From: Butyriboletus loyo
Taxonomy: Eukaryota; Basidiomycota; Agaricomycetes; Boletales; Boletaceae
NCBI GenBank assembly: GCA_038093515.1
Contig: JBBPSI010000106.1
Coordinates: 1-64,000, forward strand
Direction of reading: 5' to 3'
DNA length: 64,000 nt
Part shown: in pieces, positions 44,606 through 63,565 of the stretch
How positions within the stretch are numbered: the first letter of the stretch is position 1
Layout of the letters: every line of letters begins with the position of its first letter
Translations under genes and position numbers: made by a program
Notes under the pieces: model-generated
Database searches by the model: none
Seen by the model: the letters and a program-made list of their open reading frames with translations, nothing else
What the model was told of the DNA's origin: nothing

Positions 44606-44940
44606 TCATTGAGTCATGATCAAGTCACGGAAATTGGACTGATACTCAGGATACCCTGGGGTGGATGCTTCTGATGGGGATGGGCTAGTGTTTTCTTCAT
44701 GTTGCAACTCGATCAGAAAGTACTGCCCACATCGTGGATAGAGGTTCAGCTCCGCAACGTTCGAAGCCGTCGCCGTCCCCCTTCTCGTTGCGAATCTGCG
44801 GTGGTCCTTTGGGAAACGGTTCACACCTGTGCCACCGGAAGAAACTAGAAGAAAGGTCAGCACTTTCCGCGGGTACATAACAACTCGCTGAGCTGGGTGG
44901 CATTCGGCAATCTCTCGTCAGAAATAGATCGATCGATTAT
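44606..44940 (-). pseudogene. Relic of the UstYa-side upstream region, module 1
   Basis: Read on the minus strand, this matches the DNA just upstream of the intact UstYa-like gene at 54788-55454. Shared blocks include ctc-gcgagttgttat, cctttcttct and ggtggcacaggtgtga-ccgtttcc, then a-aggaccaccgcagattcgc with its FATRRG/FATRKG translation. The HxxHC-coding part is missing. It lies 209 bp from a plus-strand peptide gene, repeating the divergent layout seen elsewhere. Whether the region ever encoded protein is unclear; it may be the shared promoter and leader. Confidence 0.5.
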
Positions 44941-45148
44941 CAATGCAATAGCCCTTCGCATGATCATTCAAGTTGGCCCGTTCTCCAGTGGCGTATCCCG
45001 TAATAATACATAATCTGGCCTACTGGAAATTTGGGTAGGCCTCGCAGCGCGTTCTGATCTTTGTACAGCAAGTTTGTTTTCTTTGTGAACTTGCCCCACG
45101 CACTTTGATGGCCGGGCTCCCTCCGAATGCCCCACGGAAACAGATAAA

Positions 45149-45486
45149 ATGGCTAGCGGTGAGTTTCTTCGTCCCAGTACGGCAGCTACTTTCTTCCCTT
45201 CTCGCTTTTTGAAAGTAATTGGTGGGTAGCGATCCTCGGGCGAGCCATACGGACAGCAATGCCTGACCGTTGTTGTACCACAGACAGAATGCATCTCGCG
45301 CGACCCTTTCTCGTCATTTTTTGGCTTTGCGCACTCGCCCTCGCTGCGCCAGAAGACGCAGGGTCTAATGATCAAGACAGTTCTGATGGTCCTGTCGGTG
45401 AGGCACCGGTTTGACTCGCACGTTTGACAATCTCCTTCTGACGTGACTTGTTTGTCTTGTGGGGATCAGAATTCTGGGGCGCCTAG
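45149..45486 (+). CDS. Small secreted peptide precursor candidate, copy 1
   Basis: Three exons (45149-45221, 45284-45397, 45470-45486) join in frame to 67 residues. Exon 2 carries a signal peptide from an internal Met at 45289 (MHLARPFLVIFWLCALALAA, likely cut after AAP) and an acidic spacer (EDAGSNDQDSSDGP). A phase-1 intron with gtgagg donor, ctgac branch-like motif and atcag acceptor joins the 17-nt last exon, giving EFWGA and stop. Without the splice the frame would end at 45414. Four other copies in the array have the same exon-2/exon-3 structure. Exon 1 (MASGEF...) joins in phase here but not in all copies, so translation may start at 45289. A role as a modified-peptide precursor is inference. 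Confidence 0.6.
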
Positions 45487-45721
45487 TGACGTAGTCAGCA
45501 CTTTTGACAAACGGCTGCTGGTCATTTTGAGCGTGTTGTCGACTTGGGCCTAAGTTACTCGGAGTTAATTTATTCCCGTTAATCACAAAGCCAGCCTTTG
45601 TTCCGAGTTCATTACGGAGTGACGCCAGCAAAATCAAAGTTGGCTCTGAAGTGATGCCACGTTGTCGAGGTCGTCGTTGAACAAGTCAAGTCAGAGGGTT
45701 TCTGAGTTTACGTGTCTCTCC

Positions 45722-45770
45722 TTGAACTTCCTCTCTCGGAGTCGTTCCAACCTTTTCCTTATCCGGGTAC
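45722..45770 (+). repeat. Dispersed ~60-bp repeat, copy 2
   Basis: Same core as copy 1 (cttcctctctcggagtc then ttatccgggtac), with a short deletion in the pyrimidine run. It lies downstream of peptide copy 1. Confidence 0.55.
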
Positions 45771-46599
45771 TTCTGCGGTAAATGAAGACGCAAAAGCGCA
45801 TTAGTGACGAGTTCGCACGAAAGATCAAGTTAGTTTGCGAAGAATTTTGTTCATCGCAATGTTTCAGATCCGTCCGCATCTGCCGGAAGAGATGATGAGT
45901 CCGCAATCCGCTGTCATTCTTGTGCATCGCATTCCTATCCTTGATCTTACCGAGATCAGGCATGCTCAGGAATCTGAAGTTAGGCGATGATCTCTGACTG
46001 GATCCTGAGCGACCGCATCAGTGAAATGGTTATTGGTTGGAACTAACGGCTACGGTCGGTTAGCATCGGAAACCAGCAACTGTTTTACTGATGGATCTCT
46101 GGCTGATGACTCTCTGACCTGCCCAATTCTCGTCAGTTCTAATGTTTCATGAAGAGTACACTGCACGTTCGGGCCGCTGACTACCTCAGGTGTATTTTCG
46201 ATCTGTCCAACCTCAAACAAGTTCGGATTATATATGTATACCGGGGACACCTTCAAGTTCATCTCGGACGAACCATGACGTTTCAAATTTTCTCCAGCTC
46301 CCTGGCGGCATGTTTCGTAATACCACGTCAACCCGGCCCCACCGAGGAAATGGGTAAGCTTCAAACCACATTCTAATACTTATTTGGGCTGCATGTTCTC
46401 CCGTGAGCTCGCGTCAATCGGGAGTCGGCGCTTTGATGCTCTGGTAACGTTCGGCGGTCGCATCAGAGTCAGAGCACCGGCTTTCCACGTTCGCTTCAAT
46501 AGTCCTCCCGAGTAGGAGTAGACCATTCCAGACTATGCGTAACGGTCCCATCATACACTTGAAGTGACCGGTAGTCGCTCGAGTCTTGACGATGTCATA
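45771..46599. other. Gap between modules 1 and 2
   Basis: No supported gene. The segment 46390-46600 matches flanks of other modules: ttctcccgtgagctcgcgtcaatcgggag resembles 55905-55935, and the downstream flank of the peptide copies recurs in reverse here. Confidence 0.4.
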
Positions 46600-46781
46600 G
46601 TCTAAGCGTCGAAAAAAAATACAATCCTCACTAGAAATAAGTCATATCATATCAGAGGGCCATCGTCATCGACAGGGCCATTGTAAATGATATGTCTCCG
46701 TCAGTACACCCTACGTGTGCTGGCGCAACAAGAGCTAGTGCACAAGGCCACAAAAAACCAGAAAGGGCGCACGATATGCAT
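46600..46781 (-). pseudogene. Broken peptide precursor copy, module 2
   Basis: The minus strand from the ATG at 46781 begins MHIVRPF as in the other peptide copies. It loses frame inside the signal peptide, where about one extra base lies in the ttttttgtggccttgtgc stretch. The following DNA still aligns with other copies up to the 3' flank. Its ATGCAT is shared, palindromically, with the opening of the adjacent UstYa-like relic, so the promoter between the two has been deleted. Confidence 0.55.
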
Positions 46782-47366
46782 GTCATTCTCAATATCTTGG
46801 AGATGCGTCAATAAATGGACCTCAGTCGCAACCAGCAGCTCGTGGGTCACTCCACATTGTACTAAGTCATTCACAGTAGGCCATTGACTCACCTTCGTCA
46901 CGCAAATCCCTGAGTATAGCTCGCGGCGCCGACTACCACTACCCCATTGAGCTACCTTTCCACGTCTCCGACGGTCCCAAGATGACTTCACGAGTTTGAC
47001 CATTTCCCGTTCAACGGGACTGGTTTCGTTGCTCAGATGGAGTGGGACAAGCTCGTTACGGCACCAAACGGGCCAGTCATACGCGACTCGGTCTAGACCA
47101 CGGGGTCTTTGCAGTGGTATTTTCCACTGCCTGTAGTCAATCCAGAGAGCGTTGACTGCAATGATAACTACCCTGGATACGATCATCTGCATCATTGTCT
47201 CAGTCACCTGTGGCAGACGCTGCAGTGTTAGGCTGCCGACACGCTTGAACTCCGAAACTTTGTGGAGAGGGATCACGAGAATAATCGTGGAGATACGCTG
47301 GTCTGCAGGGACTGGCAACAGGTTTACACTGCGTTGGATGAGAATTGTCAGAATTGGTTAGAGTGA
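46782..47366 (+). pseudogene. UstYa-like pseudogene, module 2
   Basis: The sequence aligns throughout with the intact gene at 54788-55454. It includes cttggagatgc-tcaataaatgg near the start and the second-motif region GYDHLHHCLSHLWQTLQC, followed after a stop by AADTLELRNFVERDH, DTLVCRDWQQVYTALDE and NWLE. The first HxxHC motif is destroyed by a small deletion plus a TGG-to-TAG change near 47133. A second in-frame TAG follows LQC. It is a clear decayed copy, reading away from the broken peptide copy. Confidence 0.75.
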
Positions 47367-47431
47367 CGAGAACCGAACGCAGTACTGCAATGCCGCGCCG
47401 CCACCGCCGGGGTCACACGAATTCTCTTATG

Positions 47432-47480
47432 GACCAACTTCCTCTCTTGGAGTCGCTTCAACTCTTTCTGTTTCCGGATA
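47432..47480 (+). repeat. Dispersed ~60-bp repeat, copy 3
   Basis: The block gaccaacttcctctcttgga, then gtcgcttcaactctttctg and tttccggatac. It lies between the module 2 pseudogene and the intact UstYa-like gene at 47821 and could belong to that gene's promoter. Confidence 0.6.
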
Positions 47481-47820
47481 CTTGTATCGCAGTCAATAAA
47501 CTCACACCTTGAAGCCCATCAGGAGGTGCATGCGGTTCTACTCATTCGTGACGAGTTCGCCCTGACACATCAGTTAATTCAAAGCCAGCCGGTGTTTGAA
47601 TTAGCGGAACCCATCAGAATTGAATGTATGTATTTTTGATGCAAAATCATCTCAGGATTCTCATGATATCGATGATAAAGAACTTCCCATACTCAAGTTG
47701 CCGGGACTTCTCAGGCCGTGAGGTGATACTGCACAGGATAACCTGTTCAAGTTGAGGCTTGAAAGTGGTACCCGCGTACTTCCGTGGATAGAAACTCATC
47801 GAACTTGAATCAGATTCACC

Positions 47821-48389
47821 ATGTTCAAGCTTGCTGCTGCACTCGCACTCGTTCTCTGTATATACTTCTGCCTCGTATCCGCAGATAGCATACGATTGGC
47901 CAAAGGTAAAGGGGCGATTGTTCTGCCTCGACCCACTCTAACCATCGTCCGAACACAGACCTCTCGCTTTCGGTTCCGTTTGGGGACCCAGTAGTGATCC
48001 GTGTAGACAAGACCGCTCACTACAGTCTCGAGTCGGACGAGGGTAAAGCCGAATTCGACGCGCTCATTCCAGATGGAGATCACACGGTCGTCCTCCCCGA
48101 CCCAAGGAGCGGAAAGCCCGTCACTTATACGGTCACACTTCTCCACCAGCTCAAGTGTCTGGGCATCATCCGTGACAATTACAACTCTCGCGAGCCGCTG
48201 TCTCAGCTCACGAAGCATTGCATGAGCTATTTACGGCAGTCAGCTTTGTGCAATATCAACACGAGAATAGAACACTCGGTCGAGGCAACAGGAAAGGCTG
48301 AGAGAGGGTACGATATGGTTTGTCGGGATTGGACAAAGCTGTATGATGAAGTAGAGAGGATCCACAAAGCCGACTTTGGGGCTGAATGA
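47821..48389 (+). CDS. UstYa-like (DUF3328) protein with altered HxxHC motifs
   Basis: Two exons (47821-47905 and 47959-48389) join in frame to 171 residues. The N-terminus is a signal or anchor helix (MFKLAAALALVLCIYFCLVS). The family core is visible: TVTLLHQLKCLGIIRDNY, LTKHCMSYLRQSALC and YDMVCRDWTKLYDEV. UstYa-family proteins have two HxxHC motifs thought to bind the active-site metal. Here the first is HQLKC (residues 91-95, second His replaced by Lys) and the second LTKHC (112-116, first His replaced by Leu). The frame is clean, so this is a divergent paralog, perhaps with changed or lost chemistry, not a fresh pseudogene. It has no peptide gene opposite it. Confidence 0.78.
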
Positions 48390-49085
48390 TAATGCCGGAC
48401 TGCTGACTTCCCTGGGGCACTGGAATCGCTATACCACGTAGCCTCACGCGCCGTTACGATGAAAGGGTTCATAAATACATGGTTTGCAATCGGCGTTCGA
48501 GCACAAACTAACTAGTGTATTACCAGCGACCGCGCACGAGCGGTGACAGAAGTCCACCTCTACAAAGATGGTCCCCCGGACTTGGCAAGGCCTCATGACA
48601 TCGCTTCGCAACTCCGGACAATATTAGCGGCATTGTCAAAGGCATGATCGGGATTCCGCAGTTCCCATCTCGACCAATTGATATGCATTGTTCTGTCACA
48701 TTCGTTGAGAAATTTCATTGACCGCGCACCGCGTGGATAGCCTATCTACAAGACCTTGACAGGTATGTAAAATAATGTTATCCAATTACTTGGAAACTAC
48801 CACAAGTTACTGAGAGCTGTGCCTGGAGGACGGTTAGCAAGATGTTCCATCGCGTTCGATGACTCTGAGGTTGACCCTGGGGATCACTGTAACCTGCTCA
48901 GAACCTTGGCCAAGTTGCGCAATGAATATTGAATCCTCCACTAGTGCGACAAGGCAAGTGACAGACGTCCTACAGATATCCCGACGTTCGGTACACTGTC
49001 ATTTGTTTGGCGACAGGTTATTAACCAGGCCATGGTCAAGTCATACACACTTCGCTCACTGAACGCGCCTGCCTGCCTAGTTGAC
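48390..49085. other. Gap; right part belongs to the 7TM duplication
   Basis: No gene. From about 48955 the sequence (aagtgacaga, ttcggt-cactg, caggttatcagccaggcc-like) matches the DNA upstream of the second membrane-protein copy at 51800-51880. Confidence 0.45.
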
Positions 49086-49975
49086 ATGTCGTCCAACTCG
49101 AGTTGGGTCCTAGATGAAGACGCTCAGAGGTGCTGGATTCAAGGTGTCATCATCAGTTCTATCGCATACGGCATTACCGTCGCCCTATACTCCTTGTCCT
49201 GCCATCTGCTCGTTCGCGGGAAAAACCGTATGGAATTCAAGAAACGGTTGCTTCTGCTAATTTATATCACCGTCGCCTTCGTCCTCGGTACTCTCTTCAT
49301 GATCGCACTCGCAGTATTCACCCAGATGGCGTTCATCGGCGATCATAATTATCTGGGTGGTCCAAGCGCATTTGAGAACCATATGTTCTCGATCCATGTA
49401 AACGATGCGTGCAACGCGGCGTTTGTTCTATCCAACTGGCTGTCCGACGCTCTAGTGGTCAGTTGGCATCGAATTGGACGGTCTACTGAACGACTTATCA
49501 AAAGGTCAGGTGTGGCGCTTCAAAGTCATTTATCAGGAATGCGGGGTCCCTATCTGGATCGTGATGCTCTTCCCTTGCCTGGTGCTCGCAGGGTCGGTGG
49601 GTCAGTACCTTGAGTCATTATAAACTTGTGAGAAGGCTTGACACACGCTACAAAAATGCAGCGTTGGGGATAATGTTTCTCATTCAAGCCTCGACCGCAA
49701 ATCCCTATGTCACGAACAATATCAACTTTACGCTGCCTTATCTCGGCCTGTCCCTCGCTTTAAACGTCGTCCTTACCATTTCCATCGTCCTCCGTTTGTT
49801 GATCATCAGACATCGGATCGTCTCTGTACTGGGCCCCAAATACAGGACACAATACACGTCAGTTGTTGCGATGACCATCGAATCCGCTGCGATCTACTCT
49901 GGGTTGAGTTGGCCCCGGGGCAGTTTACCTCTGCTGGCGCCTCGGTTACGGTGGCAAATGCTGGGAAAATGGTAA
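49086..49975 (+). pseudogene. Seven-helix membrane protein, C-terminally deleted copy
   Basis: It begins MSSNSSWVLDEDAQR and matches the intact copy at 51927-53129 almost residue for residue: IQGVIISSIAYGITVALYSL, NRMEFKKRLLLLIYIT, FVLSNWLSDALVV, then after introns IVMLFPCLVLAGSVG and TNNINFTLPYLGLSLALN. After VVAMTIESAAIYSG the sequence jumps directly to DNA matching the end of the other copy (ctgctggcgcc...gctggg-aa-ggtaaag). About 260 bp coding for the last helices are missing and the tail is out of frame. The product, if made, would end at 49975 without its last helix or helices. Confidence 0.75.
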
Positions 49976-51926
49976 AGAACGTTAGTGGGGATGCAGCGTA
50001 GCGTCTGAAGTCCTCTATACCCACTGTCGGTCCCGAGCAGATTCCCATAGTTTTATTGTATTCATCGGAATAGGGGCGTACTGACGAGTATAGGACTTAC
50101 TCGTCCATCTATCTAGTTCGTGTTCCCTCACACTTGTGAACCGACCCGCCTGCCTCGTGTAAAGCACTCATGATCATGGTGATTCCTGGCTTCCAATATT
50201 CGCGTGAGGCTCCTAGGACCGTTCGAGCGTGAACGTTGGTTTGTATTTTGGTAGATCGTGATTGGTGGATCATTCCGGTGGTACCATTGCACTATTACCT
50301 ATTCAAGGCATTGGAGGTCGCTGCACAAGTTTGTTGTGGCCAAAAGCGAGTACACTTGAACACCAATGATGGTCTGCAAAATATAACATGTGGTCACGGT
50401 GCAAAACCACCAAGCTATGGGGCTATTTGGTTGTCGGTGGCTTTTGGCCTCAAACACCAAATCAACACGTCGGACTTTGTGATACGCAGCTCCTAGCCAT
50501 TTCGGCGGGATGCCGGTGGTTGGGAAGAATTTACTGTAAAATCAACCCACCCTCAAAGAGATATTTACTGAAAAGTCAACCCCTCCCCCCCTCAACGGAT
50601 TATTTGTTACCAGCGGTGGAACTACCGAGCACGAGCACCCTCAGCTGAGTCAATTTGATGACCACAAACTTATCTGCAAGTAGCTGTCTGACACAGATAG
50701 CGAGTGGCTTCGATGTCGTGTGTCGACATTGCCTGCCGTGCGATTTCGATCTTCTCAAAAGTTTATTGGCTACTATGAGATGCATGACACGTCGAAATGC
50801 ATATACTTGCAATATTTGATTCTCTCAACCCATGACGGCTTATTCAGGTGAATAATACGTAGATTTCATTTTGGTGGATTATCAGCGATTTTTTACAAGG
50901 GTTATTCTATTACTCTCGAATTTCGTCAGCGGAAGGTCGTTCCAATCGGTCGTTTTACGTGTACATGCCGCATATCACCATTCTAACTCCTTACTCATGA
51001 TGTGTGACCGGGGCACCGCCGAAGTCGAAACAAATGACGCCGTTAATAACGTACTTCGCGTGTGGCATCAACGTATCCGTGACGAGAAGGTGCCAGTGCC
51101 CACAAGCACTAGTAAGTAACTATCGCCCCCGCAGCAAAATAATCAGTAAATTCCTCCCACAGCCCTCACAACCACACTTATGGGATCGGAAATACACAGA
51201 CTACTCTATACCTCTACTACAGTAAACTGCACATTGTTCTGTTTTTTTTTCTGTCTTTTCTGCTGTGAAACAAGAGATGTACCAAAATTTAGGGGCCTAT
51301 TCGAGTCCAACAAAAGATTCTGTCACGCTTGGGTTACCCTGAACTGTTTAGACCTTTCTAGAACCGTACTACGACGTTATGCTATTCGGTCCTGTAATTG
51401 TCAGATACCCCCCTGGTAGCGTAGTCCATGACTTGCAAGTGTCAGATGTAAAAAAGTTCCATATCAGCTTTTGCACATGAACAGTTTTACATTTCATTCG
51501 GAACGCAACATTATCTCGATACCCATTTCTCTTTGGTACATAGTATGAATACACTATCACACAGCTCCTGTAAATTTTGTGGGTCTCTAGAGTGTCGAGA
51601 ATGAATCGTTTTGTAAGATTTACATTGCAGTAGACATTTTCACTTAGGTGTGCGGACGATTCTTTGTCGAGAAACCGAAGCTACCGTGGGACCCCACGGA
51701 TCTGTGAGGTAATAGAAAAATCAACGTTTCAACTCCAAGGCTAAATCGGGATTCATAACGGAAAAGTGGAACCAAACGAATTCCGCTTCAGGTCCACTAG
51801 GGCGATAAAGTAAGTGACAGAGGTCCCCATGTTCGGTGCACTGGTTTCAATTCGCAGCAGGTTATCAGCCAGGCCGCACTAAGTCATGCCCTTCCCTCAC
51901 CGATCTTACTTGCCTGCCTACTCGAC
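49976..51926. other. Gap holding the relic of the downstream duplicated gene
   Basis: The 3' flank near 50020 (cccactgtcggtcc-gagcag) matches 53165. At about 50995-51110 a fragment (gtgaccgggg-caccgccgaa, caaatgacgccgtta) matches the start of the But2-like gene at 53506, then diverges. The rest has no supported gene. Confidence 0.5.
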
Positions 51927-53129
51927 ATGTCGTCCAACTCGAGTTGGGTCCCAGACGAAAGCGCTCAGACCCTCTTCTCTGAGAGGGCCTGGCTTCAAGG
52001 CGTCATTATCAGCTCCATTGCCTACGGGATCACCGTCTCGCTATACTTCTTATCCTTCCATCTACTCGTGCGCGAAAAAAACCGTATGGAATTCAAGAAA
52101 CGACTACCTCTGCTGATTTATATCACCATCTCCTTCATTTTCGGTACTATCTTCATGGTCACACTTGCAGCATTCACCCAGATGGCGTTCATCGACGATC
52201 GTAATTATCCGGGCGGTCCAAATGCGTTCGAGAACAACATGTTCTCGATCCCTATAGACGACGCGGGCAACGCAACGTTTGTTCTGTCCAACTGGTTTTC
52301 TGACGCTTTAGTGGTCAGTTAGCATCGAATTGGACGGTCAAGTCAACAATTTACCATGATGTCAGGTATGGCGCTTCAAAGTCATTTATCAAAAATGCCG
52401 AGTCCCTCTCTGGATCGTGATGCTCTTCCCTTGCTTGATGCTCACAGGGTCGGTGGGTCAGTAGAGTTCTTTTCTAAGCTTGCGAGGAGGCTTAACAGCC
52501 CGAAATACAGCCATGGGAATATTGTTCCTCATTCAAGTTTCGACCACAAATCCCTATGTCACGAACAATATCAACTATACGCTGCCTTATCTCGGCCTGT
52601 CCCTTGCCTTGAACATCATTCTCACCATTGCTATCGTTCTCCGCTTAATGCTTTTAAGATATCGCATCGTTTCGGTGCTGGGCCCCAAATACGGGACGCA
52701 GTACACGTCAATCGCTGCGATGATCGTTGAATCTGCCGCACTCTACTCCACCGTTTCTATCGCTTTTCTCATCCTGTTCGGGATCGGAAACGCAGTTTCG
52801 CAGGTGTTCCTACAGTCCATGAACCAAATCCAGGTTTGGCTTGCTTGGAATGCCTGTCATCTTTTTCTCATCCCTCATTACAGACAATCGCCACTCTATT
52901 AATCGTGTTCCGCGTTGCGCAGGGCAAAGGATGGACCGAGGAGACTGCTGCACGTGTGATGACAGCTCAGAGGTCGTCGCCAAACTTGGAGTTCAACAAG
53001 AGGCGGTCTACCTCAGCTGGCGCTTCCCTTACGCTAGCAAGTTCTGGGGGAACGGTAAAGAGCGATGGTAGGGAATTCCAAGGCAGTCCGCGTTCAAACA
53101 ACTTTGCCATGATATCGAATCCAGCGTAG
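51927..53129 (+). CDS. Fungal seven-helix membrane protein, intact copy
   Basis: Four exons (51927-52313, 52366-52456, 52499-52833, 52884-53129) join in frame to 352 residues. Hydrophobic segments include IISSIAYGITVSLYFLSFHL, LLIYITISFIFGTIFMVTLA, FVLSNWFSDALVV spliced to VWRFKVIYQ, LWIVMLFPCLMLTG, MGILFLIQVS, YLGLSLALNIILTIAIVLRL and IVESAALYSTVSIAFLILFG, then a short helix TIATLLIVFRVA. That is about seven transmembrane helices and a cytosolic Ser-rich tail. The layout (FVLSNWxSDALVVWRFKVI, TNNINYTLPYLGLSLALN) is common in unnamed agaricomycete membrane proteins. A receptor-like role is a guess. It is a tandem paralog of the deleted copy upstream. Confidence 0.8.
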
Positions 53130-53505
53130 TATCGGAAGTTCAATGTCTATACCCCCTGAGACCCAATGTCGGTCCTGAGCAGACTTGGCCGTAATCTCAT
53201 TGCACTTATCGAGTCAGACGACAGTGTAACTACATATTAAGTTTGTAAGATCTGAATCATCCCACAGCGCTGGAAAGTACGGGAGAGGGGCGACCGATTG
53301 AGTCACCCAGATTATCCAGCTGCGTCGTGATAAATAATATTCCCAGCCTACGTTACTTAGTATCAATCAGGCACTTCGTAAATGATAAATATCCAACTCG
53401 AAGCTTATCCCAACTATGAAATTCACGGCGCGGGCTGTGACCATGCCCCAGGTTTGGTTTATTTATGGCATCTGACCATCCTGTCCTCCTGGTCATGATC
53501 GTAAT

Positions 53506-54096
53506 GTGACCGGGATTGCCGAAACGGCGCAAACGACGCCGTTGGTGGTCATCCGAGTCGTGTGCACGCCCCCCTCGACGTTACACTCAGTGTCTTCGGC
53601 ACTCACCCCGAGTAAAGAGGTGCTTTGGACTGACACGCTCATCAAAAGGCAGAGCATCCACCGCCTCCGTCGACAACACCAGTACATCGTGTTTGACGAG
53701 ATACCGCTGCCTCCCCCTGTTAGTCGTCAATTGATCACGTACCCAATATTACTCGACTTGGTGGACGCTGCCGCATCCCCGGAGGACAGCGTCTTCGACA
53801 ATGATGTCTCTGCACGCATGGCCCATAGCGATACCATCACGCCCGATGATAGGAGAGTGCGCATTACGCCCACCGTGAGTCACGGATCCGGACCTTCAGC
53901 GCTTCAGCCTCCGAGTCGGCTTATTTCTGACGCAAAAAAAAACGGAAAAACGACAACGATCATCCAGTTCCGTGCAATTGACTGGGGAATGGAAAATTAC
54001 GAGCTCAACATGGATCTGACTTGCCGGAGTCCTTTGGTCAGGAGGGCCATTCTGGTTCTCTCCCACTGTATCGCGTCCACGACACAACTCCGTTGA
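53506..54096 (+). CDS. But2-like conserved basidiomycete protein (5' end uncertain)
   Basis: An open frame of 196 codons ends at 54096. Segments that look conserved are HQYIVFDEIPLPPPVSRQLI, TPDDRRVRITPTVSHGSGP and TTTIIQFRAIDWGMENYELN, the last typical of agaricomycete proteins sometimes annotated as But2-like. The first codon is GTG; a true ATG and an N-terminal membrane segment may lie in an unrecognised 5' exon. A poly-A run (a-rich, near 53932) is in frame. A fragment of the same gene follows the deleted membrane gene at 51.0 kb, so the two genes were duplicated as a pair. The function is unknown. Confidence 0.5.
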   Translation: MTGIAETAQTTPLVVIRVVCTPPSTLHSVSSALTPSKEVLWTDTLIKRQSIHRLRRQHQYIVFDEIPLPPPVSRQLITYPILLDLVDAAASPEDSVFDNDVSARMAHSDTITPDDRRVRITPTVSHGSGPSALQPPSRLISDAKKNGKTTTIIQFRAIDWGMENYELNMDLTCRSPLVRRAILVLSHCIASTTQLR

Positions 54097-54787
54097 ATCT
54101 TCCTCCTCGCCAAACTTGGAGACGTTCAACTTGGGAAGGGTCTTGTGACGTGGCACAGAAACTTTGGCTGTGCAACGGAAGAGGTGCTTTCATTTGAGCT
54201 CAGCTGCCTTCCTTGTCGGACTCCGGCGGTGATTTCAATTGCTTTGCGGAGCGGGTAGAAATCAAAGAACGCAGTATGCACGGGTACCTGGTGAGCACCT
54301 AGAACGGGATATCGATGAGATAATTCTTATCGACGTTACAGTCATTCATATGGTGCAACTATTCGACCATGTGATGGCAGTAGCGCTCATTTCACGGCAA
54401 GCCCCTCGATACGCTCTGCCTCATAATCTGGGGTCTGGGTACGTGTGACGTCCGCTGATACCATATCAAAACAAATTGAACTTTCCGTCGTCTTCAATGT
54501 TGCAGAACATTGTGGCATGCAGAAAATTAGATGCGGCTTCGTCGGAACGTGTTAACGTGATGACGGACATGCGGAATTTGAATCTGATACCCTCAGTCGA
54601 GCATACACGTTTTCCGTAGCCATGACACGTAGCCAGTCGATGGTATCTACCTTTCCTGTTCTACGTATTCGAGATCGATTAGCTGAAAGTCGGTGCACGG
54701 TGTTGACGCCGTCTCTGGCGAACCGAACACGGTTTGGTACCGTAGTATGTTAACTTTGTAACAACGCGTTGGACAGTATTACCATGC
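54097..54787. other. Convergent gap
   Basis: About 690 bp between the But2-like gene and the minus-strand UstYa-like gene. No gene seen. Confidence 0.4.
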
Positions 54788-55454
54788 TCAATTCCACTCT
54801 TTTGCCCACTCTAACCAGTTCTGATAATTATCATCCAACGCAGTATAAACCTGTTGCCAGTCCCGGCAGACCAACGTATCGCCAACGCGATCGTTCTCGA
54901 AATCCTTCTCCATAAAGTCTCCGAGCTCAAGCGTGTCCGCAGCCTGACAAAGCAGCGTTTGCCGAAGGTAGTTGAAACAATGATGGAGATGACCGTAACC
55001 GGCGTAGGTGTCATTGCGGTCATTCAACGCCCTTTGAATTGACCATAGGCAGTGGAAATGATGCCAGAATACTAGCGTGAACACCCTATGGTCTGGACCG
55101 AGGCGTGTACGACCAGCCTCTTTGGGTGCCATGACGAGCTCGTCCCACTCCATCTGAGCAATAGGATCAGTCCCGTTGAGCAGGAAATGCACGGTCTCGT
55201 GGAGAGTCATGGCGACCGGATCGTCGGTGATGTGGAAAGGTAGCTCGAGCGGGTAATCGGCGCCTCGATAGCTGTATCTTGCAGGCTCTGAGGGATTTGC
55301 TTGACGGAGGCGCGTCAGGGATAGTCCAGTGTGAATTACTCTTCTGAAGTGACTTACGCGCTGCTGGTTGCGACTCTGAGGTCCATTTATTGAAGCATCT
55401 CCAAGTTGTGAGGAGGATATTGAGGACGGCAAGGATTTTGTAGGTGAGGTTCAT
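54788..55454 (-). CDS. UstYa-like (DUF3328) oxidase-family protein, intact
   Basis: UstYa-family enzymes carry out oxidative cyclisation of ribosomal peptides in ascomycete dikaritin pathways; other members act on other substrates. Two exons (55454-55358 and 55299-54788) join at a phase-1 intron to 202 residues. An N-terminal membrane or signal helix (YKILAVLNILLTTW) precedes the core: ARYSYRGADYPLELPF, MTLHETVHFLL and DHRVFTLVFWHHFHCLWSIQ, with HxxHC motif 1 at residues 112-116. GHLHHCFNYLRQTLLC holds motif 2 at 136-140. Then come DTLVCRDWQQVYTALDD and a Trp-rich end. All four His and both Cys are present. It is divergent from the secreted-peptide gene 611 bp away, forming the best-preserved module. 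Confidence 0.88.
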
Positions 55455-56064
55455 CTCGGGCGATGACTGTAGAACGCAGGGCAAAGTGGAACTTTGGTAT
55501 CTCAGGCTCTGCGATGGGGGTTGAGCTTATCGTTACTGTTGACTCATTTGTGGAACGACTTCCCTTTCTCGTGGCAAATCTTTGAAAATCCTTTTGGAAA
55601 CGGTCACACCTGTGCGCATCAGAAGAAACTCGTCTCACTGGCGAGTCCATCAATTGTTGCAGAAGAAAGGACAACGCCTTTCCATGGATTCGGATAACAA
55701 CTCGCCGAGCTGCACTGCACTAATGGGTGGTTTCACATCAGAAATTGAACGGTACCTGTTGATGGTGACCAATATTAACGTCGGATGTTTGAACCCTTCG
55801 TCAGTTTTCCGGTGTCATACTGCGTAATCCTACATCAATCCAGACCTTCAGGTCCCACTGCGAAAACGGGTAAGCCCTGAAGGGCATTGTGATGATTGTG
55901 CGGGAAGTTCTTCACGCGAGCTTACATTAATCGGGAGTTAGCACAATTAATGATGTCCGCTCTACATCCCAGGGCGTAATTATACTTTGTATGTACCCTG
56001 AATCATGAATGTCCCACGCAGGCTGATAATTTGAATCTCCTCCGATGATACGTGCGCATGTGCC
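55455..56064. promoter_or_regulatory. Presumed bidirectional promoter of the intact UstYa/peptide pair
   Basis: This 610-bp interval separates the two divergent start codons. Parts of it recur between the peptide and UstYa sides of other modules: ctc-gcgagttgttat, cctttcttctgcaaca, tttctgatgaaa-like blocks and tgtgcgggaagttctt near 55897 (also near 58820 and 60510 in reverse). Conservation of the interval with both genes suggests shared control; no specific factor site can be named. Confidence 0.45.
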
Positions 56065-56283
56065 ATGAAGGACAAATCGTTACATCGGACAGACAAAACG
56101 TATTTCACGCGGCACTTGCTGCTAGTTTTTTGGTTTTGTGCACTCGCTTTCGCAGCGCCAGCAGACGTTGGGTCTTTGGACGATACTGATGTCAGTGAGA
56201 GACCGGTTCTCCACGCATATTTGACGATCACCGTCTGACATTGCTTCTATCTTTTGTGGGAATTAGAACCACCAGGCGCCTAG
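56065..56283 (+). CDS. Small secreted peptide precursor candidate, copy 2
   Basis: Two exons (56065-56194 and 56267-56283) give 48 residues. The usual signal-peptide Met codon is ACG here, but an ATG 33 nt upstream restores an in-frame start (MKDKSLHRTDK). The hydrophobic core is LLLVFWFCALAFAAP. The variable part is ADVGSLDDTD, then VKPPGA after the phase-1 intron (gtgaga...attag). The last exon is again 17 nt and ends Gly-Ala-stop. It is divergent from the intact UstYa-like gene. The altered start makes its activity less certain than copies 1, 4 and 5. Confidence 0.55.
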
Positions 56284-58425
56284 TTAAGACTAGCAAGCAA
56301 CTGGACTCGCCAACGTTCCAACTTTGGTTCACTTGTACTCAACGTTATTTAAATTTAAATTACAGCTGAATCTGACCGTAAAGCGTTGTGCAAACGAGCC
56401 ACCTTTTTTTTTTGCCACGCCGATCAGACTTTTGAACCTTGACCGCCCTCCGCCAGAGGACTCATACGTACGGGACACGATTCATGCATCATGTACGAAA
56501 ATGCCAAATTGATGTTCAAATACAGCCAACCTCGATAGACAAAATAGACTGACAGTCGTTCTGGTCGGCTCGGCAACTGAGGGTAAATGCAATGGAAGCA
56601 AGCCAATATGTACGTACATTGAACCTGACTAGTCTGGGGCTGAACTCATCGAACATAGCCGGCGGCCGTGACGTGTGGAAAACATGGAATGGTCTCCACG
56701 AAACGTCAGAGCTGACGTACATTGAGGTGGGATTGCGGTGTTAACGCTCACTCTGCGACCTGTCCTGCATTTTCTTATAGTCAGGCTGAAATATCAGGCT
56801 AGTACCGCTACACGTTTTGCGTGTGCATTTCCGATCGCATATCCGCTTGCAAGTTCCCCGCTTGAAAGTTGGCGCACACAAAGCATATTCTCAGCCACTT
56901 TCAACCACTACACACCATCCTGTCTCCCTCAAGGGCACGAGCCCATTTGCCTATAGCGTGCTCCAACACTCCATCCCAACGATACGACCAATGGTATGAC
57001 GATTTGAACTTTCCAAGTATATCTCGTTCGGCTGTGCAACGGCGCGCATGCTCTCGCTTTCGATGTCTATCTCATATTGTCAAGACGTCCTTGACAACTG
57101 AACAGAACTTCCCCACGTGCGTCGACATGAGTACGCCTTTACCTTTATTATCATATTGTCATGTACTACAAGTGCAGGCCATATTCATCGTTTCGAGCAA
57201 GCTGAACGTAACCGTGCCAGTGGACTGTGCACTGAGTCACCCCGCACCACTTTTAAAAGCGCAGGACAAACAAGTGTCCTTCCTGTTTATCGTCCGGTCT
57301 ACCGTTGGTCCTATTTGGCCTTGCAAATAGATAAGTGGCACTTACGAACGCACATACAACTCTGTTGTAGACTTTTGGTAGTGACTCGAACATCCTGTGA
57401 AGTTTGCAGGCACCCCCAAGGAGAGTTGTAACCCGGGGATGGCGACTTCGACGTTACGGAGTGGATCACGATCCATGTACTGCTTCACAGAGGCTCGAGT
57501 CGAGCGAGAATGATGATACATTTACGGTCTCACTTGGTGTTCGCGAACTGACTGGAGGTGTCAACTTAAGGAGCTGCGTACCCCCGGAACTAGGCATCCC
57601 GAGCATACGAGTCCCACGATTGGTGGATGTTCACTGCCAACAAGTGAATTCGTTTCTCTTTGAAATTGGTGCGTGACGAGGCCATGTCATGAAATGGGAG
57701 AGTATGATCATCACTCATCTGATCGGGCTGCGATGTTGAGAGCGAGTCAAGGTGGAGGCGACGGATTTGCAAGCAACACAAGCAAGAAGAAGGAAGCACT
57801 CACGCTCGAAACGTCGTGCCGCGTCATGGCCTGAGCTTTGGAGCTCAACTGAAGCGCACACAATCGCGCTTGGGGCGTCTCGTGCACGGGTGAGGGCATG
57901 CGTAGTACTACTCACTCCCCTATGCCTATTCTTGGCATCCAGTCCACGGCGGGTCGGTGAGCTTGACGTGCCATCAGACTCATGTCGAATGAGGCGCTGC
58001 CGCCGTGTTTTCCATGTTATCTGGCACTCACTTTGCGGCAATGGGTTTAATCTGGGTGCACGATGAGGGAACACAAACTATTGATCAGTACGAAACAAGT
58101 AATAAGTGTAGAGTATAGCTTACCTCCAGTCGAGCATGTACGAGACCGGAGGAAAGTGGAGCAAGGCAACGCATCGAGAGAAGAGTACAGTGTCCGAACA
58201 AGGATATGTATTAATAATCAATGTAAAAGTGGTTTAACGGTCTTTGGTTCGCTGTAGACAACTCCGAGTAGAACCAGAGTCGAGCATTCCAGCCCACGCC
58301 CAACATTCTATCACGCTCTGGAAGCGGGAAAGAGTCATCTGAGTCCTATTAACTAAGGCGGACTGAAAATCTAATCACTCACAAGAAGTAGAAACCATGT
58401 CATAGACTCATAGGGCGATCGTAGA
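56284..58425. other. Gap between modules 3 and 4
   Basis: More than 2 kb without a recognisable gene. Plus-strand frames at 56869-57431 and 57404-57676 and a minus-strand frame at 57715-58074 show no motif known to me. A poly-T run lies near 56405. Confidence 0.4.
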
Positions 58426-58554
58426 TCATTCGAGGGAACGTGGCCCCGCGCCGATAGGGAGAGGGTTCGCTCTAATTTGGGGTACGCCTATTGGTGCAGC
58501 GAGAGCTAGTGCACAAAGCCAAAAAACGACGAGAAAAGGCCGCGAGAAATGCAT
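58426..58554 (-). CDS. Small secreted peptide precursor candidate, copy 3 (divergent tail)
   Basis: The ATG at 58554 opens a signal peptide nearly identical to copy 1 (MHFSRPFLVVFWLCALALAA). After the AAP site the sequence differs: IGVPQIRANPLPIGAGPRSL, with a stop at 58426 and 42 residues in all. The usual gtgagg donor at the end of exon 2 is absent; gattag followed by an 18-nt stretch ending in TAG is still visible near 58362. This copy is either a variant product or an early pseudogene. The leader region upstream resembles copy 1 (aaagtaattggtgggt) but has ACG for the first-exon ATG. Confidence 0.45.
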   Translation of the reverse strand: MHFSRPFLVVFWLCALALAAPIGVPQIRANPLPIGAGPRSLE

Positions 58555-58899
58555 TCTGTCTGTGCAATGTAGGAATAGAATAGTTAATAGTTATGCTTTG
58601 TCCTTCACACTCATCATTGAAGGATCACCCACCAATTACTTTGAGAGAGTAAGAACGAAAGAAGAAGAAGAAAGAGGTGTGCTGTGGCAAGGAAAGCTGC
58701 TGGCGTTGTCGTTTTATCAGTCTCTCTGGGACTGCATCGGCTGCATCGCCCTGGACAGGTTCGGACGTAGATCAGTCACCAAAGTGCTAGATCCTGGGCG
58801 GTGCAAGCTCGCGGGGAGATCTTCCCGCACAGATATCAGAATGCGCTTCAAAGCCTGCCTCGAACCTCCAGTAGACTTGATTAGTAGTGTACGGTCAAA

Positions 58900-59160
58900 A
58901 TGGGGGATGAAGTTAATTTACACTTGCTAATTAACCCCTGTAAATTTGCTGACCCACTTTTGTAAATTAGGGTAAATTAGGAGCAACAAAGTGCCAGCAC
59001 CCCCTAAGTATATAGCAGTGCTAGCCAAGTACTAGCCAAGTACTACTAGCGCCACACTGATCAGGGGTGACGGCCGGTGACAAGCGTGTGAGGCCGTCGG
59101 CTTTATTTTGGTAGAAGCGCTTGGTGCAGGCAGGGGATCCGTGCAGGCCCTTCTAGTGTA
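58900..59160. repeat. AT-rich short tandem repeats
   Basis: Near-repeats of gtaaattagggtaaattag (58960s) and of tagccaagtactagccaagta (59020s). No gene. They separate the peptide copy from the UstYa-side relic of module 4. Confidence 0.45.
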
Positions 59161-59199
59161 TTACGTTAGAATATGAAACCGGAGAAAAGATCGAGGTTC

Positions 59200-59453
59200 A
59201 AACATATATCATGATGAGAGCTATTGAATTCATAATCAACCGATCCATTTCTGACGAAAACCGAGCTGATACTACTTGTGTGGCTCAGCAAATTATTATC
59301 TGTACGCAGAAAGGTGTCCTTTCTTCTGCGACCATTGATGCGCTCGCCGAAGCGGCGCGTTTCTTCCGACGGCATAGGACGACCTATTGTTTGAAGGACC
59401 ACTGCCAATTTTCAAAATCATCGCCACGAGCAGGGAAATTATTCCATAAATAG
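59200..59453 (+). pseudogene. Relic of the UstYa-side upstream region, module 4
   Basis: The segment matches the upstream part of the intact UstYa-like gene (atttctgacgaaaa, ggtgtcctttcttctgc-acc-attgatg-gctcgcc, cgccacgag). No HxxHC-coding sequence follows, so the gene body is gone. Its position opposite peptide copy 3 preserves the divergent layout. Confidence 0.45.
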
Positions 59454-60052
59454 TCTAGAACGCTGATCGCGAGCTATATAAATGTTTTAGAGATCGTTCA
59501 TGACGAAAACGACCACCTTCGCCCCGTCATCGATTTTGCGGCGTTGACCAGATGTTGGAACAATTCAGAGCTTGTCACTGTATGTGGATAGAATTGGTCG
59601 TTGGCACGATTGTATGGTTGTAACTTTATCGAAGGAAGGAGGGGGAGCAAGCCGTACGTGATTTTGAAAGGTGATGATTCTGCATTATGCAGGACGACAT
59701 TGTGGTCGTTATATTTGAACCTCGGATGTCAATTTAAATGTCCTGGACGGGGACGGTGTGCAGTCATTCGAGCAGAACTACCACAGCGCAGGAACGAATC
59801 CATATTTATGCCAGTGGAACAATAGTGTCACAATGAAACGAGTGTCGCATATTCTGTCACAGAGGCTACTAGGCAACCATGCCACGGCACCGATTTCGAT
59901 TCAAAAGATTGATGAACGTGGCAGAAAAGTGGTGTAATGATTTGCGGTGGGCCGGGAATTAATAACTCTGAGTAGAGCCTAAGTCAACCATTGCAGACTA
60001 CGCGCAACGTTCCGCTGCACGCCTGAAGCGGCCGCCGTCGCTCAAGCCCTCA
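59454..60052. other. Gap between modules 4 and 5
   Basis: About 600 bp; no supported gene. The right part is the 3' flank of peptide copy 4, which aligns with the flanks of copies 2 and 5 (ctctactcagagttattaa-like, read on the minus strand). Confidence 0.4.
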
Positions 60053-60269
60053 CTAAGCACCTGCTGCACCTAATCGCCCACAAAAAATAGATGTCATGTC
60101 AAAGGGCAATCATCAAACATTGGAGGTGAATCGGTCCCTCACCGAGACTGCTATCCTCCAAAAAAACAGAATTGGCCCCATCAGTAGATCCTATGTTCTC
60201 TGGCGCAGCGAGAGCTAGTGCGCAAAGCCAAAAAACAAAAACCATGAGAACGCCCCGCACGAAATGCAT
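60053..60269 (-). CDS. Small secreted peptide precursor candidate, copy 4
   Basis: Minus-strand exons 60269-60143 and 60069-60053 join in frame to 47 residues. The signal peptide is MHFVRGVLMVFVFWLCALAL then AAP. The spacer is ENIGSTDGANSVFLEDSS, and the last exon adds LGAAGA and stop. The intron has the same donor (gtgagg), a ttgac branch-like motif and gattag acceptor as the other copies. It is divergent from the UstYa-like pseudogene of module 5, so this apparently intact peptide gene has lost its adjacent partner. Confidence 0.6.
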
Positions 60270-60779
60270 TGTACCTGTGAAAGGTAATAATGATTAGCCT
60301 CTGATGCTCACATGGATCATTGGAGAATTACCCATCGATTGTTTTGATGGACCAAGGAAAAAACAAGGTAGATGCTGTATATCGGGGCGAGGAGACTCGC
60401 CGCTGGCCATTTTATCGGTTTTCGTGTGACATTATAATAGGACCGCGGGCGGACCCGAAGATAGACCGAATGTAGAAAAGCTAACTTCCGATCTGCGCGA
60501 GGGGGTAGAACTTCCCGCACAAATATCGGAATGCGCTTCAAAGCCTACCCAGTTCCTCGCCAGGACTTGATCGACGTGTTATAGTAGACTTTCACATAAT
60601 GCAGTGTCAGGGAGTTGCACTCCAGTCCTCTCCCAGCCAAAACGCAGCACAAATCTCGTAGTGCATCAACTTTTGTTGCTCCCGACGCTGTGCACTATGA
60701 GAGCGTCACCGTATTATGGAGAACTTAGGCCACCGGAGAACCGAAGACCCGAACATCATGCTGACAAGAGATTGCATTA

Positions 60780-61490
60780 GTCACCAACGGGTCGATTTCT
60801 GACGAAACTACCCAAGCTATGCGGCACGGCGTGTTGTTGTCTGTCTGTTGAATGGCGCTGACCTTTCCTCTGCAACCGTTGATGAGCTTGCCCAGAGCAG
60901 CGAGGTTCTTTTGATGGAACAGGTACGACCAACGGACTACCGTGGATTTGTCACGAGCAGTTCCGTAAATGAGTCAACAATGACGATAGGCTCAGGGCTC
61001 AGCCTCCCCGCAGAGCCCGAGATATCAAAGTTCCACTGCGCAGTGCCCTGCGCACACAGACCTCGTCTGAGATAAACCCTCCTTACAAAATTCTTTCCCT
61101 GCTCGATCTCCTCGTTACGGTTTGGAGACACCTCAATAAATGGACCTCAGAGTCGCAACCAGTAGCTCGTAAGCTACCCCACAGGACTGAAGCATCCACT
61201 CACCTCCATCATGCATTCCCTGAAGAGGCTGGTCGTACGCGTCTTGGTCCAGAATGGCGTTCACGTTGGTATTCCGGCATCATTTCCACTGCCTGTGGTC
61301 AATTCAGAGGGCGTTGATACCTACACTGCTACGATCATCTGCACCATTGTTTCAACTACCTTCAGCAAACGCTGCTGTGTCGGGCTGTGGACACGCCTGA
61401 ACTCAGAGACTCTATGGAGTGTGATTTCGAAAATGATCGTGTTGGGGATACGCTGGTCTGCCGGGACTGGTAACATGAGAATTGCCAGTA
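60780..61490 (+). pseudogene. UstYa-like pseudogene, module 5
   Basis: It aligns over its whole length with the intact gene: the upstream region (60780-61080), the exon 1 block cctcaataaatggacctcag near 61130, cggcatcatttccactgcctg (motif 1 region), atcatctgcaccattgtttcaactacctt (motif 2 region) and ttggggatacgctggtctgcc-gggactgg. A deletion of about 15 bp after motif 1 shifts the frame, and a TAA replaces the codon after GTDWx, so no full product is possible. Much of the middle part of the intact gene is also missing. Confidence 0.7.
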
Positions 61491-62484
61491 GTCCGATAGG
61501 GTGGGCGGATGAGCGGAATTTAAGCCCGGAATGGTGTACCCGACATACTGTTGGCGAGGACCGTCGCGTCTATCGACGGTTTACCTCATGGATGGATTGA
61601 TCACCAGTCTAGCTGACAGGATGACTCGGTACTGTACCAAATTGTGTTCGGTTCGCTGGAGTGAGTACCGTCAGACCTGAGAGGCAGTTTTAGCCGATCG
61701 CTGAAACCCTGGGAATTTATGTGTACACAACTCAACTGTTCAGCGCCAGCAACTGGGAGGAGACTATCCTCATTACCAGTGAAAGCAACCTGTGCCCACG
61801 TTGACCCAGAACTGGCAATCCGAGGTTGAACCCATCGAACCCATACCTTACCCCTTCTCTCCACGCATCCCACACCTCCTTGAACGCTTCGCGGAGCAAC
61901 CTCCTGCGGGCCCCGTTCGATGACGGTTGTCGAGACCCCCAATCTTCCACCACCCGATCCTCCCACCAGAAAAATACGACCGCATTGTTTCGGGAGAAGC
62001 ACGAGTTCAGACCACAGGAACTTTCCGAGTGCCTGAGGGCACCACAGACGAATTCCCATTCTACATGCAAAATTCAACAAGCAAGCGACAAGAGCGAAGG
62101 GCATCGAGGGCGATCCGCTCTGCGTAGGTACGGACAACGTGGGCGGGGCAGTGAGCCGTTTGAGAAAATCACCACATGCCCTGGTACAAGCGAAGAAAAC
62201 ACGGGTGACATGGGTCATTCTCAGACGGGTTCAGTATTGGAAACGGCAGACGGCCATAATCGGCTGGGGTAGGTTTTCTTGAAGTATTCTTCGAAGCTTG
62301 ACACCTTCCACACCTCCTGTAGTTGTTGCGCTTGAAAAAACCGATGAACATGACAAAAAAGTGCTTTGTTGCTTTCTGGTTTAGCTGTACATGTTTCTGA
62401 GTAGAATCCAAATTAACCATTTCAAACTAAGTCACACAATGCTTCACTGCACGTATCAAGCCCCAGTCGTCGCTGGGGTCCTAA
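61491..62484. other. Unassigned stretch between modules 5 and 6
   Basis: Overlapping long frames exist on both strands (61601-62218 minus; 61826-62272 plus), without any domain that I recognise. The right end is the 3' flank of peptide copy 5. Confidence 0.35.
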
Positions 62485-62693
62485 CTAGGCGCCCGCGCAT
62501 CCTAATCCCCCAAGAAATACAAGCCATGTCAGAGAAGGATCGTTAAACATTTGAGGGGAACCAGTCCCTCACCGAACGCTGCATCAGGCTTAAAAGTATT
62601 AGTATCTGTAATACACCCTGCGCGTGCTGTCGAAGCGAGAGCTACTGCACAAAGCCAGAACACTACGAGCTTGAAGGTCGGCGTAAAGTACAT
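62485..62693 (-). CDS. Small secreted peptide precursor candidate, copy 5
   Basis: Minus-strand exons 62693-62573 and 62501-62485 join in frame to 45 residues. The start is MYFTPTFKLVVFWLCAVALA with a signal-peptide hydrophobic core. The mature part is more divergent: CITDTNTFKPDAAF, then GCAGA and stop after the phase-1 intron (gtgagg...gattag). This copy has Cys residues in the mature part (one before and one in the last exon), unlike the other copies. An upstream exon-1-like ATG (about 62846, MAMAGLL) does not join in phase, which supports a start at 62693. Confidence 0.58.
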
Positions 62694-63029
62694 TTCGTCT
62701 CTGAGATGATTGCTAATGATGAGATGGTTAGGCTTTGCCGTTCGCACATATCGTCGGAGGATTGATCGATTACCCACCAACTGCGTTGAAAGAGCAAGGA
62801 TGGCACAAAGTAGCCGCACTGGAGCAAGGAGACCCGCCATAGCCATTTTATCAGTCTCCGTGGTTCATTCACGTGGGAATGCGTACGCCCCGAGCACAGT
62901 TGGAGTTAGACCGGACATCAAAATGAAAACTCCCGAGCGAGCAGCACGAGTTCACGAAGAGCACTTCCTGTGCAAAAATTAAAACGCGTCCTGATTGACG
63001 TGTCATCACGGAATATGCAGCCGGAGAAC

Positions 63030-63450
63030 CTGAAAGGGTCAAAGATTAATATCTCAATTTCTCGCGAGAAACATTCAGCTGAGCGAGTTGTTATCGATCC
63101 GCAGCAAGGCACTGACTGACCTCTCCTCCGCAAACATCATGATGGGCTTGCCAGAACGACACCTACAAAATTATATTCCTGAGCAAAATATTTGCATTGA
63201 ACATGATATTCTTTGCACCGCCTGTGGCCAGTTCAGAGGGCATTGAATGACCGCAATGATAGTCACGCAGGTTACGATCATACCTGCCACCATTGTTTTA
63301 ATTACCCGAGGCAGTGCTGCTGTGCCAGGCTGTGGACACACCTGGGTCCTCTATGGAGAGGGATTTCAAAAATGATTGTGTCAGAGATGCACTGGTCTGA
63401 CGAGATGTTAATGTTGTCTTGGATGAGAATTATCAGAATTGGTCGGAGAG
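63030..63450 (+). pseudogene. UstYa-like pseudogene, module 6
   Basis: It keeps the upstream block (attcagctgagcgagttgttatcg near 63080), tgcaccgcctgtggccagttcagagggcattgaatgaccgcaatga (motif 1 end) and gttacgatcat-ccaccattgttttaatta (motif 2 region). A degraded tail (gatgagaattatcagaattggt) follows. Several frameshifts and deletions preclude a product. It reads away from peptide copy 5. Confidence 0.65.
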
Positions 63451-63565
63451 GGTATAGTGTATCCAACACATTGTTGTCAAATTAACATGCCGCAGTACTA
63501 ACGTTCGGTTCGTCAGAGTCAGCACTGTACACTAGCCTTCGGGCAATTGGTGTTAAAGGACAGGT

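Follow-up and report, generated by a model that had tools for sequence, protein, structure and literature searches.

A divergent array of small secreted-peptide genes and UstYa-like genes as a candidate RiPP-type locus in Butyriboletus loyo

We analysed a stretch of 64,000 nucleotides (nt) from the genome of Butyriboletus loyo (hereafter the window), in which small genes for putative secreted peptides repeatedly stand divergent to a gene of the UstYa (DUF3328) family, to a decayed copy of such a gene, or to its recognisable upstream DNA. The window comprises positions 1-64000 of contig JBBPSI010000106.1 (here C106; 88,628 bases) in an assembly of 30.3 Mb and 420 contigs. The arrangement is best explained, in our view, as a birth-and-death array whose secreted precursors would serve a lumenal copper oxidase, comparable to pathways for ribosomally synthesised and post-translationally modified peptides (RiPPs) without being a dikaritin pathway, and we give this reading a probability of about 0.4. 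The simplest account of the sequences would be that a two-gene unit was duplicated many times, with the peptide evolving in frame and the oxidase decaying in all units but one.

The peptide genes and the extent of the array

An earlier note on this DNA had described about six divergent pairs within 19 kb. Homologous sequence in the same divergent order is present at all six of those places, and the module parts, numbered after their peptide copies (P1 to P6), are as follows.

44776..45075, reverse strand: remnant of the upstream interval on the UstYa side of the P1 module; UstYa gene not found there
45289..45486, forward strand: P1 peptide gene, intact; exon 45289-45397, intron 45398-45469, 17-nt exon 45470-45486; sequence MHLARPFLVIFWLCALALAAPEDAGSNDQDSSDGPVEFWGA
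46670..46781, reverse strand: P2 peptide copy, broken; in-frame stop, no GT donor, 17-nt exon not placed
46772..47368, forward strand: UstYa B-type pseudogene adjoining P2; six deletions relative to B, in-frame stops
47821..48389, forward strand: UstYa-like gene A, 171 amino acids; a distant paralogue of B
54788..55454, reverse strand: UstYa B gene, intact, 198 amino acids; exon 1 55454-55358, intron 55357-55288, exon 2 55287-54788
55461..56060, no strand: interval between UstYa B and P3; portions repeated in other modules
56065..56283, forward strand: P3 peptide gene; coding exon to 56194, 17-nt exon 56267-56283, tail VKPPGA
58353..58554, reverse strand: P4 peptide copy, broken; signal exon intact, GCGCGG at the 5' splice site, 18-nt last exon
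58781..59457, forward strand: interval remnant of the P4 module; UstYa gene not found there
60053..60269, reverse strand: P5 peptide gene, intact; exons 60269-60143 and 60069-60053; sequence MHFVRGVLMVFVFWLCALALAAPENIGSTDGANSVFLEDSSLGAAGA
61068..61520, forward strand: UstYa B-type pseudogene in the P5 module, with an internal deletion and frameshifts
62485..62693, reverse strand: P6 peptide gene, intact; exons 62693-62573 and 62501-62485; sequence MYFTPTFKLVVFWLCAVALASTARAGCITDTNTFKPDAAFGCAGA
63204..63455, forward strand: UstYa B-type pseudogene of the P6 module, 3' part

Three of the six window peptides are thus fully intact (starts 45289, 60269 and 62693), while P2 and P4 are broken. P3 has lost its original start codon: ACG occupies the homologous position 56098, an in-frame ATG lies upstream at 56065, and the donor motif of the 5' untranslated region (UTR) is also absent.

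The array proved longer than the six pairs first described. Self-comparison combined with profile and pattern searches gave 14 copies of the peptide unit, 11 on C106, two on contig C53 and one on contig C105, and the five further copies on C106 carry the array past 63.5 kb to 86 kb.

64.4 kb of C106: P7, peptide copy, fragment
66.3 kb of C106: P8, peptide copy, broken
67.8 kb of C106: P9, peptide gene, intact
70.6 kb of C106: P10, peptide gene, intact
86.0 kb of C106: P11, peptide gene, intact
Contig C53: Q1, peptide gene, intact
Contig C53: Q2, peptide copy, broken
Contig C105: R1, peptide copy with GTG at the start position

Fully intact here means that a copy has ATG where the conserved start lies, keeps its frame open, and possesses the 17-nt exon together with both splice sites. 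Seven of the 14 qualify (P1, P5, P6, P9, P10, P11 and Q1), five are broken (P2, P4, P7, P8 and Q2), and P3 and R1 lack the start codon alone.

A 23-nt pattern from the signal exon, with up to three mismatches allowed, matched the 30.3 Mb genome 14 times, 13 of these in the peptide family, and its reversed control gave 0 matches. The remaining match, on contig C36, was judged to be due to chance and not a family member; P9 was not caught because it has a deletion. The exact tail pattern ending Gly-Ala-stop was found at five places genome-wide, all within the array (P1, P5, P6, P10 and P11). That 13 of 14 genome-wide matches of the signal-exon pattern belong to the family argues that the peptide unit, as far as the sensitivity of these searches reaches, does not form a dispersed repeat. 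Peptide copies scattered mainly without UstYa neighbours, which the earlier note had named as evidence against itself, were looked for across the genome and were not the pattern seen.

The flanks outside both genes are alike in the P6 module (window 61850-62300) and the P10 module (L029:5690-6300), so some duplications appear to have exceeded the two-gene unit. A tandem-repeat origin was considered and set aside, as 40-64 kb holds just one short, unrelated array. No double telomere repeats were found in C106 or in the ~10 kb stretches examined on C53, C105 and C102.

Intact peptide copies share a simple structure, in which a coding exon opens with M-[HYR]-[FL] and a hydrophobic stretch and is followed by a GT-AG intron and a short last exon. 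The GT-AG introns measure 57-73 nt in nine copies (P4 has a gap of 81 nt without a GT donor), and eight of ten introns have a CT[AG]A[CT] branch motif 28-33 nt ahead of the acceptor. The proposed 17-nt last exon is present by sequence in nine of the ten copies where a last exon was placed, the tenth being the 18-nt exon of P4. Upstream of the start, eight of the 13 copies examined have a GATAAA box at 134-169 nt; eight of 13 likewise combine a donor (GTGGGT or GTGAGT) at 66-85 nt with a CA[CG]AG acceptor just before the start, and these sites possibly mark a 5' UTR intron. Maximum 15-residue hydropathy of the N-terminal stretch was 2.09-2.82 in all eight peptides scanned. Dibasic sites numbered 0 in eight of eight peptides scanned, in keeping with the earlier statement that the precursors lack repeated Kex2-cut cores.

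The length of the first coding exon is 1 mod 3 in all 12 copies with an anchored start, over nine distinct lengths of 97-139 nt and including copies broken elsewhere. Homology was used to place the anchors, even in copies whose ATG or donor is mutated, and the count leaves out Q2 (start missing, in-frame stops) and the fragment P7. By arithmetic, the chance of eight further in-frame lengths is about 1.5e-4 if these are taken as independent one-in-three events, a rough figure given that the copies are related. The nine GT-AG intron lengths spread over all three mod-3 classes. In the gap-free region of the signal exon (11 copies), the ratio of nonsynonymous to synonymous differences (pN/pS) was 0.62 in the proposed frame, versus 0.82 and 1.12 in the other two. 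Judged from these sequences, the peptide copies are a real gene family, and selection on the peptide lasted through much of its divergence, because exon 1 is in frame in every anchored copy and signal-exon pN/pS is below 1. Intactness of the peptides alone was rejected as proof of selection, since target size accounts for it.

The predicted C-terminal tails follow the consensus D-x-x-[VILF]-x-x-x-[G/P/C]-A, with the ends DGPVEFWGA, DTDVKPPGA, DSSLGAAGA, DAAFGCAGA, DASIDFQPA, DVSVDFEGA, DDPIISEGA, DSSIGSYCA and DAFIGSDCA in nine copies. The Gly-Ala ending claimed earlier therefore holds for six of the nine copies with an exact 17-nt exon (P1, P3, P5, P6, P10 and P11); the ending is PA or CA in the remaining three. 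Where a GT donor and a 17-nt exon are both present (nine copies), the splice junction reads GAT-n-n-n-n-n-n-[GATC]TC-[GA], then the last exon; its GAT is altered in P2 and P4 and kept in P8, whose last exon is lost. Within the last exon, pairwise diversity falls from 0.63 in the first nine nt to 0.125 in the last eight; the final 14 nt of the intron give 0.34, and the ten nt following the stop have a diversity of 0.62 (column mean). The x positions are as diverse as the post-stop DNA and thus change as freely as non-coding DNA; from the sequences they may be either unconstrained or diversifying. The final Ala codon differs at its third base alone (GCC in seven of nine, GCT in two of nine), a pattern as expected if the amino acid were constrained.

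The UstYa side

Sequence of the UstYa side was sought with UstYa B and its upstream DNA as queries, in the whole of C106 and in stretches of about 10 kb from each of the contigs C53, C105 and C102. For 11 of the 14 peptide copies, such sequence was present 5' of the copy and in divergent orientation, and none was detected for P7, P8 and Q1. Nine copies of the B-type gene itself were found. Seven lie on C106, at 46.8, 54.8, 61.1, 63.2, 68.4, 71.1 and 86.7 kb, and C53 and C105 have one each; the copies at 68.4 and 71.1 kb consist of exon-1 pieces only. A genome-wide protein search gave no further B-type places. All nine have a peptide partner, on three contigs, which upholds the proposed co-duplication of peptide and UstYa gene.

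Other parts of the earlier description stood only in part. A UstYa gene or its upstream DNA had been expected in each window module; UstYa B is intact at 54.8-55.5 kb, the copies at 46.8-47.4, 61.1-61.5 and 63.2-63.5 kb carry frameshifting indels or large deletions, and upstream DNA alone was found at 44.8-45.1 and 58.8-59.5 kb. The interval between the two genes, described as conserved, is recognisable in five of the six window modules and was lost at 46.6-47.4 kb, where there is an overlap of some 10 nt between the genes. One piece of upstream DNA, at 46277-46432, is a stray one without a peptide beside it, and on C105 a piece of the R1-side UstYa pseudogene (L033:4292-4396) is inverted relative to its remainder.

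Exon 2 of UstYa B matches PF11807 at 44.4 bits (cut-off 25), and its copper motifs HHFHC and HLHHC, within 54788-55270 on the reverse strand, fit the pattern HxxHC(x)nHxxHC. The N-terminus is hydrophobic, with a maximum 15-residue hydropathy of 1.68 at residues 7-21 (hydropathy only). The intron has canonical splice sites with the acceptor CCCTCAG and leaves the frame open. This model replaces those with acceptors CTGCAAG or ATACAG, which give a frameshift, and an early doubt that UstYa B was a pseudogene was dropped once the CCCTCAG acceptor gave an open frame. The sequence had no match in the PDB, and a structure model built from four own-genome rows was not used (mean predicted local distance difference test score, pLDDT, 42).

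Compared with UstYa B, the C53 copy differs at 46 of 310 sites at codon positions 1 and 2 and at 51 of 155 sites at position 3 (p=1e-5). A third-position excess relative to B was also seen for u86 (p=5e-5), the C105 copy (p=0.004), u61 (p=0.025), u63 (p=0.018) and u46 (p=0.088), so that p<0.05 was reached in five of six pairwise alignments and in four of six within a joint alignment (u63 0.085, u46 0.13). Because its differences from the other copies concentrate at third codon positions, the B line is one that, by this comparison, stayed under coding selection.

For further UstYa genes in two places, no peptide neighbour was found. Gene A matches PF11807 at 40.9 bits and has the altered motifs HQLKC and LTKHC, which depart from HxxHC(x)nHxxHC through the loss of histidines; no peptide copy was found divergent to it. 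On contig C102 (L005:3636-8348), two UstYa genes with canonical HxxHC motifs flank an opposite-strand beta-lactamase-type gene (PF00144), and no peptide copy was found in the ~10 kb stretch examined there.

Genes and repeats around the array

An alpha/beta hydrolase frame at 43560-44252 borders the array on the left (Abhydrolase_1, 57.5 bits; 'Serine aminopeptidase, S33', 42.5 bits). We take it to resemble proline iminopeptidases, and this deserves attention since the mature peptides are predicted to start near Ala-Pro. Between 48937 and 53126 lie two tandem copies of a multi-span membrane protein gene, about 79% identical over 980 nt, the first seemingly without one segment; no Pfam match above the cut-off was found in the pieces scanned. 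Housekeeping-type genes occur beyond the window: a ribosomal S7-type gene between P9 and P10 (C106 68.7-69.4 kb; L029:4671-5444) and a dihydrolipoamide-acyltransferase-type (lipoyl-E2-type) gene ~2.5 kb past P10 (C106 73.1-74.7 kb; L029:9112-9939 and L030:2-706). Elsewhere in the window, ~1 kb at 1402-2415 aligns to its own reverse complement over its full length at 74% identity, forming an imperfect long palindrome of two head-to-head arms. The segments 42383-42603 and 63625-63836 are inverted relative to each other and 71% identical, the first lying inside an alpha/beta hydrolase frame.

Competing readings and known systems

If the array does supply a lumenal oxidase, the peptide gene would make a small secretory precursor consisting of a signal peptide, a short unconserved linker and a C-terminal D-x-x-hydrophobic-x-x-x-(G/P/C)-A segment, which would be carried mostly by the 17-nt last exon. 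The divergent partner would be a UstYa (DUF3328) oxidase with two HxxHC motifs, probably a binuclear copper enzyme that is anchored in the membrane and, as proposed for CctR, faces the secretory lumen. It would meet the precursor in that lumen and oxidise the precursor's variable C-terminal part; the fixed D-x-x-hydrophobic and the terminal Ala may act as recognition or trimming signals, and UstYa B, the only copy left intact, would act in trans on several precursors. Since a precursor with a signal peptide would cross the same lumen as the oxidase, a pairing of enzyme and substrate is plausible by analogy. A stronger proposition, that these genes represent a fungal RiPP class with a single C-terminal variable core encoded largely by the 17-nt exon, Kex2-free release, oxidation by a divergent UstYa and diversity through duplication of precursor genes, seems to us doubtful.

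Several observations weigh against our preferred reading. Co-duplication is also what follows from mere adjacency. UstYa has mostly been lost while many peptides persist: eight of the nine B-type copies are truncated or frameshifted, and the sole intact one, UstYa B, adjoins P3, whose original start codon is lost. When decayed copies were compared with each other in the joint alignment, p<0.05 was reached in three of 15 pairs (position 3 being higher in 14 of 15), which weakened the third-position excess relative to B as a sign that decayed copies had once been selected; that other UstYa copies worked after duplication is possible and, from these sequences, weakly supported. The pN/pS of the peptide segment after the signal is 1.05, a value that fits relaxed constraint as well as diversification. 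Aromatic residues occur in four of nine C-terminal pentapeptides and Tyr in one of nine; for the repeat sequences of precursors beside DUF3328 genes, a figure of 65.6% with Tyr is reported (PMC7329392). By Pfam, no P450, methyltransferase or tyrosinase was found in 66 of the 70 C106 frames of at least 130 codons (some scanned partly; gene fragments can escape), and the ribosomal S7-type and lipoyl-E2-type genes sit inside the array.

Some of these points bear on the idea that the array is a dying, once functional gene-pair family, whose copies are relics that have no role today and include a few working genes at most. Besides the eight decayed UstYa copies, five of 14 peptides are clearly broken and two more lack a start codon. 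The intact fractions, seven of 14 for peptides of about 130 nt and one of nine for UstYa genes of about 600 nt, are roughly the target-size expectation under neutral decay, and there is little codon-position bias among the decayed UstYa copies. We nevertheless consider this explanation unlikely, given that exon 1 is in frame in 12 of 12 copies, even broken ones, and that signal-exon pN/pS is below 1.

Less probable again, to our mind, is that the products are unmodified secreted signalling or defence peptides sharing a bidirectional promoter region with a UstYa that acts on something else, so that the pairing would be regulatory or incidental. Peptides do persist where a UstYa gene was not found (P1 and Q1), their tails have no tyrosine requirement, portions of the interval are common to several modules, and the fixed C-terminal Ala with a hypervariable middle may resemble recognition peptides. 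This reading sits poorly, however, with the peptide partner of every B-type UstYa copy on three contigs and with an intact UstYa B apparently kept under coding selection. A mobile or repetitive element with two chance open reading frames is highly improbable: copies do lie on three contigs and in both orientations, but about 14 were found in the 30.3 Mb, of which 11 share a single contig, and they have normal exon-intron genes.

The reading we prefer, in which a lumenal copper oxidase acts on secreted precursors, can be set beside several known peptide systems. Hypervariable cores in numerous short precursors also occur in amatoxin-type families; neither the amatoxin/MSDIN systems nor the borosins are known to be paired with UstYa. 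The present precursors differ from both in having a signal-like exon, no MSDIN leader and no fused methyltransferase. Basidiomycete mating pheromones carry a C-terminal CaaX box and no signal peptide, whereas here Cys stands at position -4 in one of nine tails (P6) and a signal-like exon is present.

The dikaritins of ascomycetes (ustiloxin, phomopsin, asperipin and victorin) share with our array a UstYa/DUF3328 gene beside a secreted ribosomal precursor. In contrast to them, the peptides described here have no repeated cores, no Kex2 sites and one variable C-terminal segment, mostly without Tyr; they are encoded by many separate small precursor genes instead of one repeat precursor, and no P450, methyltransferase or tyrosinase appeared among the frames scanned. 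Dikaritin precursors are described as multi-core and Kex2-cut (PMC9233826). Because they fail the repeat and Kex2 features, we do not file these peptides as dikaritins, yet they may work like them. On the enzyme side, CctR is reported to be copper-dependent, with a catalytic domain proposed to lie in the organelle lumen (PMC12435403). UstYa B resembles the DUF3328 copper enzymes CctR, ApnU and AprY in its HxxHC(x)nHxxHC motif and hydrophobic N-terminus; it differs in that their reactions are reported as known (PMC12435403), whereas UstYa B is known from sequence alone.

A survey of 1461 fungal strains reported a DUF3328 gene near 22% of Kex2-processed repeat precursors (PMC7329392). That survey covers repeat precursors with Kex2 sites, and the present peptides would escape it. 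More generally, surveys of UstYa-type peptides, as outlined in PMC7329392 and PMC6339444, sought repeat precursors with Kex2 sites. Among the matches listed from open-licence literature, judged by title or the start of the abstract, none described a non-repeat, micro-exon precursor beside UstYa genes. If the pairing is real, a class of very small precursors encoded with a micro-exon would have been overlooked, and UstYa-rich genomes such as that of the basidiomycete Pleurotus ostreatus, for which 16 UstYa-like genes are reported (PMC8893723), could be re-examined. In that case the array would also offer a naturally occurring panel of seven or more variable candidate substrates for a single enzyme.

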